Shown here: one piece after another, positions 21,948-62,113 of the stretch | How positions within the stretch are numbered: position 1 is the stretch's first letter | Layout of the letters: the number at the start of each line of letters is the position of its first letter | Source of the DNA: Candidatus Melainabacteria bacterium RIFCSPHIGHO2_02_FULL_34_12 | GTDB lineage: Bacteria > Cyanobacteriota > Vampirovibrionia > 2-02-FULL-35-15 | Length of the DNA stretch: 64,000 nucleotides | Reading direction: 5' to 3' | NCBI GenBank assembly: GCA_001784555.1 | Contig: MFRM01000007.1 | Span: 1 to 64,000, forward strand | Program-made: the position numbers and the translations under genes | Notes under the pieces: generated by a model | What the model was told of the DNA's origin: nothing | Databases searched by the model: none | What the model saw: the letters and a program-made list of their open reading frames with translations, nothing else

Positions 21948-21975
21948 GTAGAGACGCTATGAATAGCGTCTCTAC
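21948..21975. repeat. 28-bp perfect palindrome, GTAGAGACG family
   Basis: Thirteen-base arms GTAGAGACGCTAT around GA. It lies between the rplD operon promoter and the glycosyltransferase gene, transcribed divergently. Perfect pairing allows a strong hairpin on either strand. Confidence 0.9.
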
Positions 21976-42676: not shown

Positions 42677-42704
42677 GTAGGGTCATGCCGCGGCATGACC
42701 CTAC
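42677..42704. repeat. 28-bp perfect palindrome, GTAGGGTC variant
   Basis: Fourteen-base arms GTAGGGTCATGCCG, fully complementary with no loop. It lies between the TPR gene stop and the ispG start; four bases after its CTAC end comes TATAATGAA on the minus strand. Confidence 0.92.
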
Positions 42705-49031: not shown

Positions 49032-49066
49032 AAAAGCCCCTTTAAAAAGGGGCTTTTAAATTTTTT
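49032..49066. terminator. bidirectional intrinsic terminator
   Basis: AAAAGCCCCTTT paired with AAAGGGGCTTTT, followed by a T run on the plus strand (49061-49066) and preceded by an A run, giving a T run on the minus strand. Sits between the two convergent ribbon-helix-helix genes and can end both. Confidence 0.85.
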
Positions 49067-49565: not shown

Positions 49566-50345
49566 TTGAAAACAATAAAAGAAGCTTATAAGTTGACTGA
49601 AAAAATAATTGAGAGAGCAAGTCTTTTTATAAATAAAAACCTAAACAAGATTAGAAAAATCTCCTTTAAAAAAGGAGATTTTAATTTGGTTACCAATGTA
49701 GATCATGAGGTAGAGGAACTTCTTTTAAAAGAAATCTATTCAAAATTTCCAGATCATTCTGTTATTGCAGAAGAATCAGGCATTAAAACAAATAATTCAA
49801 TTTATAAATGGTTTATTGATCCTATAGACGGGACTACTAATTTTGCTCATGGATATCCTTGTTTTTGTATTTCAATTGCTTTTGCAAAAGATAATGTTAT
49901 TGAATTTGGATTTATAAAAAATCCTGTAACTGACGAATTATATAGTGCCAGAAAAAATAAAGGCGCAAAGTTAAATGGTAAAAATATTTCAGTTTCAAAG
50001 ACAAGAAAGCTCAAAGATTCTCTACTTGTAACAGGTTTTCCATATGATAGAAGAACATCAAAAATTAATAATTTTAAAAACTTTTGCAATTTAACTTTAA
50101 CTACTCAGGGCGTCAGAAGAGACGGTTCAGCTGCAATGGATCTATGTTATGTTGCCTCAGGTAAGTTTGATGGTTTTTGGGAAATAAAATTAAGTCCATG
50201 GGATGTAGCTGCCGGAGTATTAATTTTAAAAGAGGCAGGAGGAAAAATAACTGCATTTAAAAATAAAAAATATAACATCTACAGTAAAGAAATAGTTGCA
50301 TCTAACGGGAAGATTCATGATGAATTATTAAAATATTTATCCTAA
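49566..50345 (+). CDS. suhB: inositol monophosphatase family protein
   Basis: 259 residues from a TTG with GGAG and AAGGAAGG upstream. Metal-binding motif WFIDPIDGTTNFAHGYP, the earlier EE in AEESG and the C-terminal WDVAAGVLILKEAGG are complete. Hydrolyses inositol-1-phosphate; the E. coli member SuhB also aids rRNA antitermination. The next gene, on the other strand, ends two bases after the stop. Confidence 0.92.
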   Translation: MKTIKEAYKLTEKIIERASLFINKNLNKIRKISFKKGDFNLVTNVDHEVEELLLKEIYSKFPDHSVIAEESGIKTNNSIYKWFIDPIDGTTNFAHGYPCFCISIAFAKDNVIEFGFIKNPVTDELYSARKNKGAKLNGKNISVSKTRKLKDSLLVTGFPYDRRTSKINNFKNFCNLTLTTQGVRRDGSAAMDLCYVASGKFDGFWEIKLSPWDVAAGVLILKEAGGKITAFKNKKYNIYSKEIVASNGKIHDELLKYLS

Positions 50346-51174: not shown

Positions 51175-52269
51175 TTATTTGTTAATTAGGTAATTAGAAA
51201 TACATTGTTTAACTTTTCTATCATCATATTTTGATAACGCCCAAAGCACATGTTCACGAATTACTGGATCTGCTTCATTCTCAGCCAGCCATATTAACTC
51301 TGGCAATGCTTCTTCTGACAATCTGTTTCCTGCAACAATAGCTGCATTTCTTAAAAAGCCAGAACGTTTTGGCCGTGTAAGTGCTGTATGACAAAACCTT
51401 GCATGAAATTCATCTTCAGTTCTAATTTTTAAGACATCCGCCAATTTAATCCAGTGACCAAAGCCTGATTCGGGCTTAAATTCTTGCCAAGACGTTTCTT
51501 TTATTTTTTTATTATATGGACAAACCAGCTGACATAAATCACAACCAAACATCCAGGAGCCAAATTTTTTGCGCAAATCAATTGGAATATTTCCCCGATT
51601 TTCTATTGTTTGGTAAGAAATACATAAACGCGCGTCAAGTAGGGGCGTTGCAGGCAACGCCCCTACACCTAACGCATCCGTAGGGCACACATCTATACAC
51701 CGAGTACATTTTCCACATGTACCGTTTATATCATGATCAGGTTCAATTTCAAGATTTGAAATTATTTCACAAACAAAAAAATAAGATCCGAATGGTTTAT
51801 TAATAATTAATGTATTTTTTCCAAAAAATCCCAGCCCTGAATTCCTGGCAAATGACTTTTCCAAGAGCGGAACAGAGTCTGAAAATCCTTTTGAAATAAA
51901 ACGATCACCAACTTCTTCTTTTATTTTTTCCTGAAACAATTTTATCTTTTTTCTAAGTACTTTATGGTAATCAATTCCGACTGCATAAGCAGCTATTCTT
52001 CCATAATTAGTCCCCGGGTCAGAAGGTGCTTCAGTATAGTAATTAACAAGTAAACTTATGACTGATTTTGCTTCAGAAAGAATTTGCTTTGGCTTTGCAT
52101 TTATCGGATCTTCTCTTAATAAATAACTCATATCCGCAGCAAAACCTTTTTCTCTCCACTTAAGAAAATGTTCATTTGATGAACTAATGTCATCTGCAAG
52201 CGTAATACCAACTGCATCAAAACCCAGATCAAATGCAATATCTGTAATTAACCTTTTAATATCAGACAT
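51175..52269 (-). CDS. queG: epoxyqueuosine reductase
   Basis: Last step of queuosine tRNA modification: reduces epoxyqueuosine with cobalamin. 364 residues; N-terminal B12-binding region with DAVGITLADD, ferredoxin motifs CGKCTRCIDVCP and CDLCQLVCPYN for two 4Fe-4S clusters, and a C-terminal HEAT-like repeat (LPELIWLAENEADPVIREHV). A palindrome at 51639-51666 is in phase and gives about ten extra residues, DALGVGALPATPLLDA, between the first cluster motif and RLCISYQTIE. Divergent from rimO; TATCAT lies six bases before the ATG. Confidence 0.95.
   Translation of the reverse strand: MSDIKRLITDIAFDLGFDAVGITLADDISSSNEHFLKWREKGFAADMSYLLREDPINAKPKQILSEAKSVISLLVNYYTEAPSDPGTNYGRIAAYAVGIDYHKVLRKKIKLFQEKIKEEVGDRFISKGFSDSVPLLEKSFARNSGLGFFGKNTLIINKPFGSYFFVCEIISNLEIEPDHDINGTCGKCTRCIDVCPTDALGVGALPATPLLDARLCISYQTIENRGNIPIDLRKKFGSWMFGCDLCQLVCPYNKKIKETSWQEFKPESGFGHWIKLADVLKIRTEDEFHARFCHTALTRPKRSGFLRNAAIVAGNRLSEEALPELIWLAENEADPVIREHVLWALSKYDDRKVKQCISNYLINK
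51639..51666. repeat. 28-bp perfect palindrome within queG
   Basis: Arms GTAGGGGCGTTGC around AG. Inside the coding region of queG, in frame, covering residues 202-211. Confidence 0.92.
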
Positions 52270-52286
52270 GTAATAATGATACCTTT

Positions 52287-52314
52287 GTAGGGGCGTACCA
52301 TGGTACGCCCCTAC
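52287..52314. repeat. 28-bp perfect palindrome between divergent queG and rimO
   Basis: Fourteen-base arms GTAGGGGCGTACCA. On the plus side CTAC is followed after four bases by TATAAT (52319-52324), on the minus side after five bases by TATCAT. It may thus separate or space two divergent promoters. Confidence 0.92.
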
Positions 52315-52322
52315 TTGTTATA

Positions 52323-53792
52323 ATGAAATATCCAATGCAAAACAAGCATAAAAAACTTCCTGTGATCGGCATATCTACCCTAGGCTGCCCTAAAAACCTT
52401 GTAGATACTGAAAACATTGTAGGCATACTGCACGCAGCAGGATACCCTATTACAACAGATCAAACCAAAGCTGATTTATCCTTGGTAAACACCTGTACCT
52501 TTATAGAAGGAAGTACAAATGAAAGCAAGGAAGTATTAAAAGATCTTTCTAGCCAGGGGAAAAAACTTATCATTACCGGCTGTATGGCACAAAGATTTAA
52601 AGGTGATTTGTTTTCTGAATACTCAAACGCACAGGCAGTAGTAGGAACAGGAAATATATCCGATATTTTAGAGGTAGTAAAAAAAGTTACTGCAAATTTA
52701 AACAAGGGTAAAGATTCAAGGATTATAAAAGTTGATGAAATCCCAATGGCTGTTGCAAATGCATCTACACCACGTTTAAATACACAAATAGGTCCAAGTG
52801 TTTACATAAAAATTGCAGAAGGCTGTGATCATAGGTGTGCTTTTTGTATCATTCCTTATTTAAGAGGAGATATGAAATCACGAACAATTGAAGACATAGT
52901 AAAAGAAGCTAAAATCCAGGTTACAAATGGTGCTAAAGAATTAGTTCTAGTTTCACAGGATAGCACTGCTTATGGAACAGATATATATAAAAGAAGAGCA
53001 CTGGCAGATTTACTTAGAGCACTAGCTGATGAATCAGGAGCACAGTGGATTAGGCTTATGTACGCTTATCCTACTGAAATGGACGAAGAAATGCTGGATG
53101 TAATTGCCTCTAAGAAAAATATAGTTAAATATATCGATATTCCACTACAACATGCCAGCAGTAAAGTGCTTAAATCCATGAGACGGCCTTCTACAGTAAG
53201 AGACACTGTTAATTTAATAAGAAAAAAACTTCCAAATGGAGCAATCAGAACCACTCTTATCGTAGGATTTCCAGGTGAAACTGAAGAAGATTTTAATGAG
53301 CTATATAATTTCGTAAAAGAAACTCGTTTTGACAGAGTAGGAGTTTTTACATACTCAAAAGAAAAAGGCACGCCTGCAAACGATTTCAAGAATCAGGTAA
53401 CTGAAGATATAAAAGAAGAGCGTAGAGAAAAAATAATGCTGCTGCAGCAAAAAATATCTTTAGAGAAAAATAAAGAATTTATTGGTAAAGAGATGGAAAT
53501 GCTAGTAGAATATCTCGAACATCATGGTAAGGGCGAGGCAACCTCGCCCCAACAGGAGACGCCCCGCAGGGCGTCTCCCCAACGAATCGTGGGACGCTCA
53601 TTCCGCGATGCACCAGAAATTGATGGTCAATTATATATAGATCTAGATGTCATTCCCACGAAAGTGGGAATCCAGAAAACCGATTTATCTGGATTCCCGG
53701 TCAAGCCGGGAATGACAATACAACCAGGAGAATTTATTAAAGTAAAAGTTATTGACTGTGATGAGTATGATCTTTTCTGTACGACTGCTTAA
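52323..53792 (+). CDS. rimO: ribosomal protein S12 methylthiotransferase
   Basis: Radical SAM enzyme that methylthiolates Asp88 of S12. 489 residues against about 440. N-terminal UPF0004 domain with STLGCPKNLVDTENIVG, radical SAM CDHRCAFCIIPYLRG, YIDIPLQHAS, and a C-terminal TRAM domain (GRSFRDAPEIDGQLYID, then EFIKVKVIDCDEYDLF). Two palindromes (53527-53550, 53555-53578) and one longer inverted repeat (53648-53717) add residues in the TRAM linker and in a TRAM loop, all in phase. The ATG at 52335 is an alternative start. Confidence 0.95.
   Translation: MKYPMQNKHKKLPVIGISTLGCPKNLVDTENIVGILHAAGYPITTDQTKADLSLVNTCTFIEGSTNESKEVLKDLSSQGKKLIITGCMAQRFKGDLFSEYSNAQAVVGTGNISDILEVVKKVTANLNKGKDSRIIKVDEIPMAVANASTPRLNTQIGPSVYIKIAEGCDHRCAFCIIPYLRGDMKSRTIEDIVKEAKIQVTNGAKELVLVSQDSTAYGTDIYKRRALADLLRALADESGAQWIRLMYAYPTEMDEEMLDVIASKKNIVKYIDIPLQHASSKVLKSMRRPSTVRDTVNLIRKKLPNGAIRTTLIVGFPGETEEDFNELYNFVKETRFDRVGVFTYSKEKGTPANDFKNQVTEDIKEERREKIMLLQQKISLEKNKEFIGKEMEMLVEYLEHHGKGEATSPQQETPRRASPQRIVGRSFRDAPEIDGQLYIDLDVIPTKVGIQKTDLSGFPVKPGMTIQPGEFIKVKVIDCDEYDLFCTTA
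53527..53550. repeat. palindrome within rimO, GTAAGGGCGAGG family
   Basis: GGGCGAGG and CCTCGCCC arms, in frame in rimO (residues about 402-410), encoding KGEATSP, nearly the same peptide (KGEVTSP) as the uvrC copy at 54274. Confidence 0.88.
53555..53578. repeat. palindrome within rimO, GGAGACGCCC variant
   Basis: Arms GGAGACGCCC with loop CGCA, four bases after the previous palindrome, in frame (residues about 411-419). Confidence 0.85.
53648..53717. repeat. 70-bp inverted repeat of the TCATTCCC type within rimO
   Basis: Ends TGTCATTCCC and its complement; inner GTGGGAATCCAG and CTGGATTCCCGG pair. In frame in the TRAM domain (residues about 442-465), giving VIPTKVGIQKTDLSGFPVK. Confidence 0.9.
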
Positions 53793-53832
53793 CTGTAAAA
53801 TCCAGATCCAACTTTGCAGAAATTATCAAAAT

Positions 53833-53958
53833 TGTCATTGCGAGCGAAGCAAAGCAATCTTACACCTGCAATTACGTTTCATGAAGTTTCATTATTAATG
53901 TTATTTGCATTGTGAGATTGCTTCGTCGTCCGCCTCAGGCGGACTCCTCGCAATGACA
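53833..53958. repeat. 126-bp inverted repeat of the TCATTGCGAG type
   Basis: Outer arms TGTCATTGCGAG and its complement; the right half reads AGATTGCTTCGTCG, then a nested GTCCGCC/GGCGGAC hairpin, then CTCCTCGCAATGACA. Matches the element at 3326-3408. Fills most of the rimO-uvrC gap (convergent genes) and may fold as a terminator for both. Confidence 0.9.
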
Positions 53959-53997
53959 AAACAGAAGTGATGAGTATGATCTTTTCTGTGCACTCGT

Positions 53998-55887
53998 TTA
54001 AATTTGCCTAATCTTCTCCCAAATTGCTTTTGAAATACATGGACTATGGTTAAAAACAGTTGTAAATATTTTTAAGTCTGACTCCTGAATATTTTTAATA
54101 GATCCAAAATAATTCATCAGCTTTTTAATCTTTGCTTTTGTTAAACCGGGGATTTTCTCCAATTTGGATTCAAACGTATCTTTTGCTCTGGTGTCTCTCT
54201 GAAAGGTTATAGCAAATCTATGAGCTTCATCTCTAATTCTTTGAAGTGCAAATAATGCTTGTGATTTTCGGTCAAGAAGTAAGGGCGAGGTAACCTCGCC
54301 CTTACTTCTTTTATCTACCTTAAAGACTTCTTCACGTTTTTTGGCTAGAGATATTAAATCAATCTTTGTAAAATCAATTTGTAGATTTTCCAGTGCTTCT
54401 TTTGCAGCATTTAATTGGCCTTTGCCGCCATCGATGATTATTAAATCCGGTAGAGACGGGGTAACCCCGTCTCTACGATACCGTCTTGAAACAATCTCCC
54501 TCATCGATGCAAAATCATCAATCTTTCCGATAGGCAGAGATTTAATTTTAAATTTTCTATATTCTGATTTTTCAGGTTTTCCATCTATAAAAGTCACCAT
54601 ACTTGCCACAGTACCAGTGCCACCTAGATGTGAAATATCAAAACATTCAATGCGATGCGGATAATTTTTTAAATTTAATTCCTGCTTTAATTCCACCAGA
54701 GACGTTGCATGCAACGTCTCTTCCATTGAATGGTTTGACAATAAAACCCTCTGTAGGGATAATTTTGCGTTTCGCTCTGCCATCTTTACAAGTTCTAATT
54801 TTTTACCCTTTTTAGGATATATTACAGTTGCATTTTTATTTAATCTCCCGCTAAGCCATTCTTCTACATATTTTTTTTCCTTTAAATCAAACTGGACAAC
54901 TATTTCATTAGGCAAATTATCATCATCTATCCTCGTGTAATATTGCTTTACCCCATCATTAAATGCATCAGCAGGCTCTGTACCTTTAGGAAGCTCAATT
55001 GTAAAAGACTCGACAGCAATTACTTTTCCTTCTCTTACCAGCAAAAGCTCAAGCACCATAAACTTTTCATCCCAGTAACATCCAAAGATATCCTGGTTTA
55101 ATTTATAGTCATCGCTTACTATGACTTGTTTTTCCAATACTTTCTCAATTTTTTTAATTGTATCTCTTAACCTTGCTGCTTTTTCATACTCCAGATTTTT
55201 ACTGGCTTCTTTCATTTGACTTTTTAAATCTTTTAAAACTACATCGTATTTGCCGAGCAAAAAATCTTCAACTTGCCTCACGATTTTGTAATAATTTTCA
55301 TCGATAATTAAGCTTTGGCATGGACCAGAACAAAGTCCAAGATGATAATTCATGCATGGTCTGTCTTTAAAAAGTGGTTTTCTGCGAAGCCTAAGCTGGA
55401 ATCCTTCTTTGAGAATTTTATATGTTTCCCACATTGCACTAGAATCGCTGTACGGACCAAAAAATTTATTTTTTGTCTTTGGGAATTTTCTTTTAAATCC
55501 TATGACATCTCTTATGGGTACAACTCTTGGATATTTTTCATCATAAGTAATCATCAGCCATGGAAATTTTTTGTCGTCTTTTAGAGTTACATTATATTTA
55601 GGCTGATATTTGTTTACTAAATTTGCCTCAAGTATTAATGCTTCTTTTTCAGATCTGGTCACTACAGTCTTAATTTCAATGATTTTAGGCACTAGAAAGG
55701 AGAGCTTTGGTCTATCTTTCCATGAAGTAACATTAAAATATGACCTAATGCGATTCTTTAAGTTCAAAGCCTTTCCAATGTATATAACACTTCCTTTCTT
55801 ATCAAACATCATGTAAACACCAGACAATGAAGGAATATTCTTTAATTGCTTTTTTAAGTCTGTGTCAACTTCTTGTGTATATTTCAT
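53998..55887 (-). CDS. uvrC: excinuclease ABC subunit C
   Basis: Nucleotide excision repair nuclease making both cuts with UvrB. 629 residues; GIY-YIG domain (LSGVYMMFDKKGSVIYIGKA), Cys cluster CMNYHLGLCSGPC, UvrB-binding UVR motif (LKDLKSQMKEASKNLEYEKA), RNase H-like domain (RIECFDISHLGGTGTVASMV, LIIIDGGKGQLNAA, RIRDEAHRFAI) and C-terminal HhH (IPGLTKAKIKKLMNYFGS). Three palindromes lie within the gene in phase, each in a poorly conserved loop. TATAAT ends nine bases before the ATG. Divergent from ahcY. Confidence 0.96.
   Translation of the reverse strand: MKYTQEVDTDLKKQLKNIPSLSGVYMMFDKKGSVIYIGKALNLKNRIRSYFNVTSWKDRPKLSFLVPKIIEIKTVVTRSEKEALILEANLVNKYQPKYNVTLKDDKKFPWLMITYDEKYPRVVPIRDVIGFKRKFPKTKNKFFGPYSDSSAMWETYKILKEGFQLRLRRKPLFKDRPCMNYHLGLCSGPCQSLIIDENYYKIVRQVEDFLLGKYDVVLKDLKSQMKEASKNLEYEKAARLRDTIKKIEKVLEKQVIVSDDYKLNQDIFGCYWDEKFMVLELLLVREGKVIAVESFTIELPKGTEPADAFNDGVKQYYTRIDDDNLPNEIVVQFDLKEKKYVEEWLSGRLNKNATVIYPKKGKKLELVKMAERNAKLSLQRVLLSNHSMEETLHATSLVELKQELNLKNYPHRIECFDISHLGGTGTVASMVTFIDGKPEKSEYRKFKIKSLPIGKIDDFASMREIVSRRYRRDGVTPSLPDLIIIDGGKGQLNAAKEALENLQIDFTKIDLISLAKKREEVFKVDKRSKGEVTSPLLLDRKSQALFALQRIRDEAHRFAITFQRDTRAKDTFESKLEKIPGLTKAKIKKLMNYFGSIKNIQESDLKIFTTVFNHSPCISKAIWEKIRQI
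54274..54310. repeat. 37-bp perfect palindrome within uvrC
   Basis: Eighteen-base arms beginning AAGAAGTAAGGGCGAGGT around one base. In frame, residues about 526-538, giving KRSKGEVTSPLL between VFKVD and RKSQALFALQRI. Confidence 0.93.
54450..54476. repeat. 27-bp perfect palindrome within uvrC
   Basis: Arms GTAGAGACGGGGT around one base. In frame, residues about 471-480 (YRRDGVTPSLPD), in the loop before LIIIDGGKGQ. Confidence 0.92.
54698..54721. repeat. 24-bp perfect palindrome within uvrC
   Basis: Arms AGAGACGTTGCA. In frame, residues about 389-397 (EETLHATSL), in the linker before the RNase H-like domain. Confidence 0.9.
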
Positions 55888-61072: not shown

Positions 61073-62113
61073 CTATAGATAACAAGTATTGGGCTTGCTG
61101 CAGCAAGCCCCTACTTCCTCAATTGCCCAGAGAACTATTTCTTTTGCAAGCTGTCTTCCTGTAAATCTCTCAATTTCCTGCAGGCAGGTAGGACTTGTAA
61201 CATTTACTTCAATTAAATAATCACCAATAACATCAATGCCTGTAAAATACAATCCGTCTTTTTGAAGATATGGTTTTAACTCTTCACATATTTCTAAATC
61301 TCTTTTTGAAAGAACAGCAGGCTTAATATTGGCACCCTGATTCATATTTGCACGGAACTCACCGGCTTTTGGAATCCGTGCAAGAGCACCAATAGGATTA
61401 CCGTTTAAAAGAATAATTCTTTTATCGCCAGCTTTAACTTCAGGAATAAATTTCTGAACTATTAGTGGACTCTCATTGCGAAGACTGGATTCAATGGTAG
61501 AAAAACTTTCTTTCACATTTTTATTCAAATAAAAAACCTCACGCCCGCCCATATAATATAAAGATTTTAAAACCGCTTCATTATTATCATTTAAAAAATC
61601 TTTTATCTCTTCCGGCTGAGAACTAACAAGTGTTTCAGGAATTAAGTCAGGGAAATTTAAAGCATATAGTTTTTCATTTGCCTTTAACATGCCTAAGGGG
61701 CTGTTTATTATAAGTGCTTTAGAAGAATCAATCATTGAAAGCATTAACAGATAAGAAAGAAAATCCTGATTTATAGGAGGATCTTTTCTGGCAAAAACTA
61801 TATCTATTGAATCCAGCAAATATTCAGAGGTACTTACTACATTAAGATGCTCTCCGGCCTTTTGCTTTACGGTAACTTTATCAAACTTAGCAAAAACTTT
61901 ATTATTAATAATTTTTAAATAATTGGATTCTGTATATAAAATATTTATATTTTTTATCTTCAAATCTTGTGCAGCAAGCATTAATGCAAATGTAGAATCA
62001 TGAGAAATACCAGATTCAGAGAGGTTTTTAACCCCATTTGCAATAAATGCAATATTTACATCTTTCTTGCTTGTTTGTAATTTGTTATTTTTTTTAACTT
62101 CTGACATTGACAT
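61073..62113 (-). CDS. gshB: glutathione synthetase
   Basis: ATP-grasp ligase joining glycine to gamma-glutamylcysteine. 346 residues from the ATG at 62113 with GGAG four bases upstream (a TTG lies just before). VFARKDPPINQDFLSY, NSPLGMLKANEKLYALNF, VLKSLYYMGGREVFYL, KRIILLNGNPIGALAR and GLYFTGIDVIGDYLIEVNVTSP are the prokaryotic GshB motifs. The last ~12 residues (VGACCSKPNTCYL) are encoded by a palindrome at 61091-61114 and add three Cys. gshA is not in the window. Confidence 0.93.
   Translation of the reverse strand: MSMSEVKKNNKLQTSKKDVNIAFIANGVKNLSESGISHDSTFALMLAAQDLKIKNINILYTESNYLKIINNKVFAKFDKVTVKQKAGEHLNVVSTSEYLLDSIDIVFARKDPPINQDFLSYLLMLSMIDSSKALIINSPLGMLKANEKLYALNFPDLIPETLVSSQPEEIKDFLNDNNEAVLKSLYYMGGREVFYLNKNVKESFSTIESSLRNESPLIVQKFIPEVKAGDKRIILLNGNPIGALARIPKAGEFRANMNQGANIKPAVLSKRDLEICEELKPYLQKDGLYFTGIDVIGDYLIEVNVTSPTCLQEIERFTGRQLAKEIVLWAIEEVGACCSKPNTCYL
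61091..61114. repeat. palindrome at the 3' end of gshB, GGGCTTGCTG variant
   Basis: Ten-base arms GGGCTTGCTG, fully complementary, then the family end CTAC. In frame within the last codons of gshB (residues about 334-341). Confidence 0.85.

Follow-up and report, generated by a model that had tools for sequence, protein, structure and literature searches.

Short palindromes lie in frame inside three adjacent genes, queG, rimO and uvrC, of a 64-kb stretch of DNA (hereafter the window) from a non-photosynthetic relative of the cyanobacteria, and these palindromes are real, mobile elements that did not arise by chance. The window belongs to contig C7 of G000, a Melainabacteria/Caenarcanales-type metagenome-assembled genome of 2.1 Mb in 26 contigs, and the closest genomes for comparison are members of the same family, with 70–80% identity over three concatenated proteins. 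We consider it probable (roughly 80%) that the copies are double-foot repetitive extragenic palindromes (REPs), the substrate of a subclass 2.4-type TnpA_REP HuH transposase, or REP-associated tyrosine transposase (RAYT), and that they have spread with loss of target sequence, selection and renewal. The family, its copy number, its reading frames, its location, the net length of the host proteins, a RAYT with an internal copy and the occupancy of the same sites in several genera were all observed directly.

An earlier reading of the window (the original prediction) had suspected from the arms of the palindromes that they form a dispersed family, and this is borne out genome-wide. The elements are mostly 27, 28 or 29 bp long with ends GTA[A/G]...[C/T]TAC, some G000 copies having GTAA...TTAC instead of GTAG...CTAC, and they show the GT[AG]G 5′ end and the complementary C[TC]AC 3′ end of double-foot REPs. 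The strict pattern GTAGRGRCG-N6..14-CGYCYCTAC gave 48 copies in G000, 45 in G007, 29 in G009, 10 in G006, 8 in G003 and 0–3 in the other genomes of the family, while the reversed pattern, used as a control, was absent from G000, gave 0 in nearly all genomes and reached a maximum of 1. By a looser rule, 59 copies were collected from 19 stretches of 20 kb chosen around matches, the window and smaller loci. Palindromes with arms of at least 11 bp numbered nine in the window compared with 0–2 (mean 0.5) in first-order Markov shuffles, and five of the nine fell within the 3.1-kb stretch 51639–54721. In a sample of the phylum, strict palindromes were also common in some photosynthetic cyanobacterial families, with as many as 185 per genome, and the same cores, e.g., TTGCATGCAA and GTAGAGACGTTGCATGCAACGTCTCTAC, recurred at many unrelated loci and in distant cyanobacteria.

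Among the 40 distinct 28-mers of G000, 3256 position pairs differed between copies on both sides and 1048 on one side only, and the arms mismatched at 6% within copies but differed by 35% between copies. Because the two-sided changes outnumber the one-sided ones and arm mismatch is low, it is the palindromy that is conserved and not the sequence. Target duplication, which the original prediction had hoped to define, was not seen at the ends of the 59 copies, where direct repeats measured 0 bp in 40 cases, 1 bp in 13, 2 bp in 5 and 4 bp in 1. The base at position −1 outside the elements was T in 53% and G in 3%, and CT occupied −2/−1 in 14% compared with a 6% background; this outer-end CT/TT preference is weak and agrees with published CT cleavage by TnpA_REP. 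Two different double-foot REPs with one base between them were noticed at L217 (6368–6424), at the end of an open reading frame (ORF) of 153 amino acids.

The host genes and palindromes of the window are as follows (lengths relative to relatives with empty sites).

51175–52269, minus strand: queG, epoxyqueuosine reductase, host gene
52323–53792, plus strand: rimO-type radical SAM methylthiotransferase with TRAM domain, host gene
53998–55887, minus strand: uvrC, host gene with three copies
51639–51666: queG copy, 28-bp double-foot REP, element frame 0, peptide VGALPATPLL, net +5 amino acids
52287–52314: queG/rimO intergenic copy, 28-bp perfect double-foot REP between divergent gene starts
53527–53553: rimO linker copy, 27-bp REP before the TRAM domain, element frame 1, peptide KGEATSPQ, 3′ foot decayed to CCCCAAC
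53555–53578: second rimO linker palindrome, 24 bp with 10-bp arms and a 4-nt loop, adjoining the copy at 53527–53553
53648–53717: rimO TRAM-region repeat from a different family, stem-loop of about 70 bp, GTCATTCCCACGAAAGTGGGAATCC...GGATTCCCGGTCAAGCCGGGAATGAC, at the same place in G009
54274–54310: uvrC site 1, 27-bp REP at 54279–54305 plus flanks, element frame 1, peptide KGEVTSPLL, net +6 amino acids
54450–54476: uvrC site 2, 27-bp REP, element frame 1, peptide RRDGVTPSLP, net +2 to +4 amino acids
54698–54721: uvrC site 3, REP without GTA/TAC feet, peptide ETLHATSL, net 0 amino acids
21948–21975: another copy of the family, outside genes according to simple ORF calling
42677–42704: another copy of the family, with an ispG-like gene on one side and a tetratricopeptide repeat (TPR) gene on the other
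61091–61116: decayed copy without its 5′ foot, from which a glutathione synthetase-like ORF takes its C-terminal codons

All palindromes that had been described in queG, rimO and uvrC were recovered at their positions, each of them in the open frame of its gene, and so was their common peptide start KGE(A/V)TSP, which reads KGEATSP in rimO and KGEVTSP in uvrC. Contrary to the original description, they are not all perfect: the copy at 51639 has an unpaired central dinucleotide, that at 53527 in rimO has lost its 3′ foot and that at 54698 in uvrC both feet. The palindrome of 37 bp at 54274 is really a 27-bp element with complementary flanks AAGAA...TTCTT, and the perfect copy at 52287–52314 as well as those at 21948, 42677 and 61091 had been overlooked. 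All three uvrC copies lie in or adjoin predicted coil between secondary-structure elements, and that at site 1 was found only in G000 among the genomes compared.

Several other repeats share this part of the window. The arms of the 70-bp rimO repeat (53648–53717) are near-identical to those of L144 in G009, which lies at the same place, though the surrounding gene has diverged. An intergenic stem-loop repeat, TCATTGCGAGCGAAGCAAAGCAATCT...GATTGCTTCG...CTCGCAATGAC, occupies 53836–53957 between rimO and uvrC; its family also occurs in frame in uvrC site 2 of G001 (VIASEAKQS), with a related repeat in rimO of G013. It is flanked by an exact 23-bp direct repeat, GTGATGAGTATGATCTTTTCTGT, at 53758–53780 in the end of rimO and at 53967–53989 downstream, which suggests that the 3′ end of rimO was duplicated locally. 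The palindromes AAAAGCCCCTTTAAAAAGGGGCTTTT and AAAATCTCCTTTAAAAAAGGAGATTTT, at 49032–49057 and 49656–49682, are terminator-like and stand outside the GTAG...CTAC family.

A RAYT-type transposase had been guessed to exist elsewhere in the genome, and G000 indeed has two Y1/HuH genes, L031 (G000:C3) and L032 (G000:C12), both scoring above the cut-off for Pfam Y1_Tnp. L031 holds a perfect 27-bp copy inside its ORF, between the HuH and Tyr motifs (peptide CRGGVTPPLQ), and in the L031 model the loop encoded by this post-HuH palindrome (residues 91–107) has a predicted local distance difference test score (pLDDT) below 50. In L032, two degenerate half-palindromes lie between the same motifs; L032, L198 and L200 share such degenerate paired half-palindromes in the post-HuH loop, similar to GTAGGGGCA...GTGTTTGCCC or GGGGCAGAC...TGCCCCTAC, in a layout unlike that of L031. 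Palindromic DNA is found at the same internal place in the related RAYTs of G001, G006, G007, G009 and G010, and an in-frame internal REP between HuH and Y is present in L031, L211, L212, L250, L251 and others. In 15 of the 34 RAYT ORFs of the phylum sample, a strong palindrome follows the HuH motif at a distance of no more than 180 nt, compared with 2 palindromes elsewhere in the ORFs, and 7 have a palindrome within 500 bp outside the ORF. Flanking REPs, which a REPtron would have, were not found within 500 bp of L031 or L032. WQ is present in all six family RAYTs and YIxNNP in five, L032 having YVINNR, while the HuH motif takes the form NHxH twice and DHxH four times. With membership based on these motifs and the internal REP, the elements appear to fit the double-foot REPs of a subclass 2.4 TnpA_REP. 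Counts of RAYTs by Pfam Y1_Tnp alone were too low, the match being split by the internal palindrome; a profile built from the six RAYTs detected more of them, including in G001 and G006, and this spoke against an initial idea that the number of copies follows the presence of a RAYT. Two more RAYT-like sequences in G000 (G000:C3:134000-134447 and G000:C3:250206-250715) contain stops and look decayed.

The majority of the 59 sampled copies, 34 (58%), lie inside ORFs called by a simple longest-ORF rule, and of the remainder 17 are intergenic and 8 overlap an ORF end. Frame 0 is used by 17 of the genic copies and frame 1 by the other 17; the third frame, in which the foot would read as TAG or TAA, is used by none. 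Most host ORFs match Pfam families, among them FtsY (with two copies), GltX, NadD, homoserine dehydrogenase, a Mur ligase, a PrmC-type methyltransferase, a MiaB-like radical SAM protein, D-Tyr-tRNA deacylase, uracil-DNA glycosylase and a RecN-like protein. The original prediction had singled out three adjacent DNA/RNA-modification genes, but 28 further ORFs in this sample hold the same elements, so queG, rimO and uvrC are no special target. Copies of 28 bp make up 23 of the 34 genic ones and, this length not being a multiple of three, their clean insertion would shift the frame.

The net effect on protein length is small for elements of 9–10 codons. Compared with relatives of the same family, uvrC has gained nothing at 54698, 2 to 4 amino acids at 54450 and 6 at 54274, queG has gained 5, and the rimO linker about 14 for its two copies. 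Relative to solved homologues, the gain is 0–1 amino acids in NadD and in AnmK, 0 and 2 for the two copies of FtsY, 1 in GltX, 2 in homoserine dehydrogenase, 4–5 in PrmC, 3–5 in a metallo-beta-lactamase-fold protein and 8 in D-Tyr-tRNA deacylase; these PDB comparisons are distant, FtsY, PrmC and a CN-hydrolase included, and the lengths were read by eye from the alignments. Over 13 copies, the CN-hydrolase copy at an alignment edge being left out, the mean gain is 2.8 and the median 2 amino acids, and the palindromes thus appear usually to replace rather than lengthen protein loops. It had been proposed that the copies behave like Rickettsia palindromic elements and spread as extra peptide. The in-frame part of this likeness holds for 34 of the 59 sampled copies, while the extra peptide is rarely large and at the queG and uvrC sites ranges from nil to six residues; at 54698, palindrome-free UvrC homologues are of equal length, which had been named in advance as evidence against the proposal. 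Plain in-frame insertion adding peptide, as described for the Rickettsia elements, is in keeping with the in-frame copies in many genes and with the length gained in D-Tyr-tRNA deacylase, at uvrC site 1 and in the rimO linker, but we regard it as unlikely in view of the median gain of two residues and of the dominance of frameshifting 28-bp copies in the genic set, including the likely essential ftsY, nadD and gltX.

Related genera carry palindromes at the same codon positions. At uvrC site 3, they stand in exact register with different arms (GAGACG, GGGGCA and others) in G000, G001, G003, G007 and G009, whereas the remaining genomes lack a clear palindrome, G006 having a decayed one nearby. 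The queG site holds different palindromes in G000, G009 and G010, a degenerate one in G004 and, in G003 (L172), a degenerate REP that is interrupted by a second palindrome, CCGCCGAAGGCGAGGCTCGCCAAGGGCGG, with the frame intact; the linker is shorter in G001, G002, G007 and G008. Elements are found, with some variation in frame, in the rimO linker of G000 (two), G001, G004, G006 and G009, and in the uvrC site 2 linker there is a degenerate palindrome in G010, a possible remnant in G004 and a repeat of a different family in G001. Paired positions amount to 13, 13, 11 and 5 of 13 at queG and to 11, 10, 12, 12 and 13 at uvrC site 3, with many of the changes compensated on both sides, and in a small test permuting the right arms among shared sites the outcomes were 2/24 for queG and 2/120 for uvrC site 3. 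Codon-shuffled genes yielded about 1.4 GC-rich quasi-palindromes over the whole set (uvrC 0.7, rimO 0.3, queG 0.4), and most of those observed cluster at the uvrC, rimO and queG linkers. Supports on the deep branches of the family tree are 21–37, too low for gains and losses at the shared sites to be counted. Two different perfect palindromes at one site are more than vertical inheritance with ordinary drift can explain, and we infer that an old copy is either displaced by a new one or has its arms matched again once they have mutated.

Re-matching of arms is also at the centre of a scheme without transposition, in which replication template switching corrects local quasipalindromes that grew from chance half-sites. 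This scheme would account for the symmetry kept while the sequence varies, for the lack of any visible target duplication and for the length-neutral replacement at several sites; it would not be expected to place GTAG feet and identical cores at unrelated loci and in distant cyanobacteria, and as a full explanation it is unlikely, although template switching may still account for the upkeep of symmetry after insertion. A functional RNA or DNA hairpin, inherited vertically and selected with compensatory changes, would agree with the compensated pairs and with the same codons being occupied at uvrC site 3 in five genera and at queG in four scored genomes plus the nested case of G003. We judge it very improbable, since sister genomes differ in queG occupancy (absent from G006 beside G009 and G010, and from G008 beside G004), unrelated repeat families sit in the same linkers (the TCATTGCGAGCGAAGC repeat in uvrC site 2 of G001 and a related one in rimO of G013), the copies are scattered over about 30 unrelated genes and the feet have decayed in uvrC site 3 of G000. 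Chance palindromes or an assembly artefact, conceivable for a metagenome-assembled genome, are refuted by the control counts (nine palindromes in the window for a mean of 0.5 expected, the reversed pattern at most once per genome) and by the occurrence in many independent genomes.

For the preferred reading, that of double-foot REPs mobilized by a RAYT, the proposed steps are cleavage, insertion with deletion and renewal. Probably acting on the lagging strand, the RAYT would cut the folded REP as single-stranded DNA at the GTAG foot and paste it elsewhere. On acquisition, the target would usually lose a few to about 28 bp, which would allow an element of 27–29 bp to sit in frame, and selection would retain those copies that keep the frame and the rough loop length, with the consequence that copies build up in permissive surface loops. 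There, a fresh copy may replace an old one or template switching may re-match the arms, and the symmetry would last while the sequence changes. That replacement by the RAYT and its REP is length-compensated in a single step and that the same codons are re-occupied repeatedly, with loops being continually rewritten across genera, is a more speculative version that we put forward tentatively and think rather doubtful. Several points weigh against the scheme as a whole. RAYT activity is predicted, the base preference at −1/−2 is weak, and the symmetric variation could stem from several founder palindromes. For non-essential genes, the history may have had two steps, insertion and then deletion. 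The net lengths were derived from homologues at 70–80% identity or from distant PDB proteins, and the empty sites are known from homologous proteins alone and not as alleles at the DNA level. Furthermore, the Y1 protein that the Pfam search returned for G003, a genome with eight copies, is of a different type, so copies can outlive or lack a cognate gene.

The element and its location in genes are of known kinds. TnpA_REP of subclass 2.4 with double-foot REPs has been described from Cyanobacteria and Bacteroidetes, with GT[AG]G/C[TC]AC ends, an in-frame REP between HuH and Y of its own gene and the HuH motif NH[IFV]H (Quentin et al. 2018, PMC6006769). Foot sequences, internal in-frame REP, WQ and YIxNNP motifs and cyanobacterial occurrence agree with this subclass; unlike it, the host here is non-photosynthetic, most sampled copies lie in housekeeping genes, no REPs lie within 500 bp of the G000 RAYTs and four of the six family RAYTs have DHxH. 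The available passages of Di Nocera et al. 2013 (PMC3733652) describe intragenic REPs, many of them in DNA replication/repair genes (uvrA, uvrB, recB), a same-site recB REP in two Xanthomonas species and cyanobacterial families, and these passages make no mention of length-neutral replacement. The GTAG tag, the copies within ORFs and the many hosts in replication/repair are likenesses to this GTAG REP superfamily, the tag of which is, according to the same passages, unpaired and its location mostly intergenic, whereas in our copies the feet at both ends are paired and the majority of the sample is genic. For Rickettsia palindromic elements, the same paper gives CGTC-tagged or longer families without RAYT association. 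Our elements resemble them as dispersed palindromes in frame in genes, but start with GTAG or GTAA and not with a CGTC tag, in agreement with the original view that the family is a distinct one; the Rickettsia elements are reported as added peptide, while here peptide is mostly replaced.

Small dispersed repeats, reportedly described by Elhai et al. in 2008 from filamentous cyanobacteria, are likewise very small mobile repeats of the same phylum, in some families of which the palindromes studied here abound. A literature search with the arm sequences returned unrelated papers only. Judged from sequence, both the element and its transposase fit a known kind, and the literature found on subclass 2.4 and intragenic REPs does not name this lineage. 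What seems new is that replacement is length-neutral and that codon positions are re-used in several genera; for either, our literature search, of incomplete coverage, found no report except, in the passages available, that on recB in Xanthomonas (PMC3733652).

The mode of REP spread has been described as unresolved (PMC8266576). A genome with most of its sampled copies in conserved genes offers a ruler for this process, as homologues tell how many native bases each event has cost, and turnover can be read from orthologous sites at which the palindromes differ. Should replacement and re-occupation be confirmed, the mechanism of transposition would be constrained, and mobile DNA would be able to rewrite the loops of essential proteins without breaking them.

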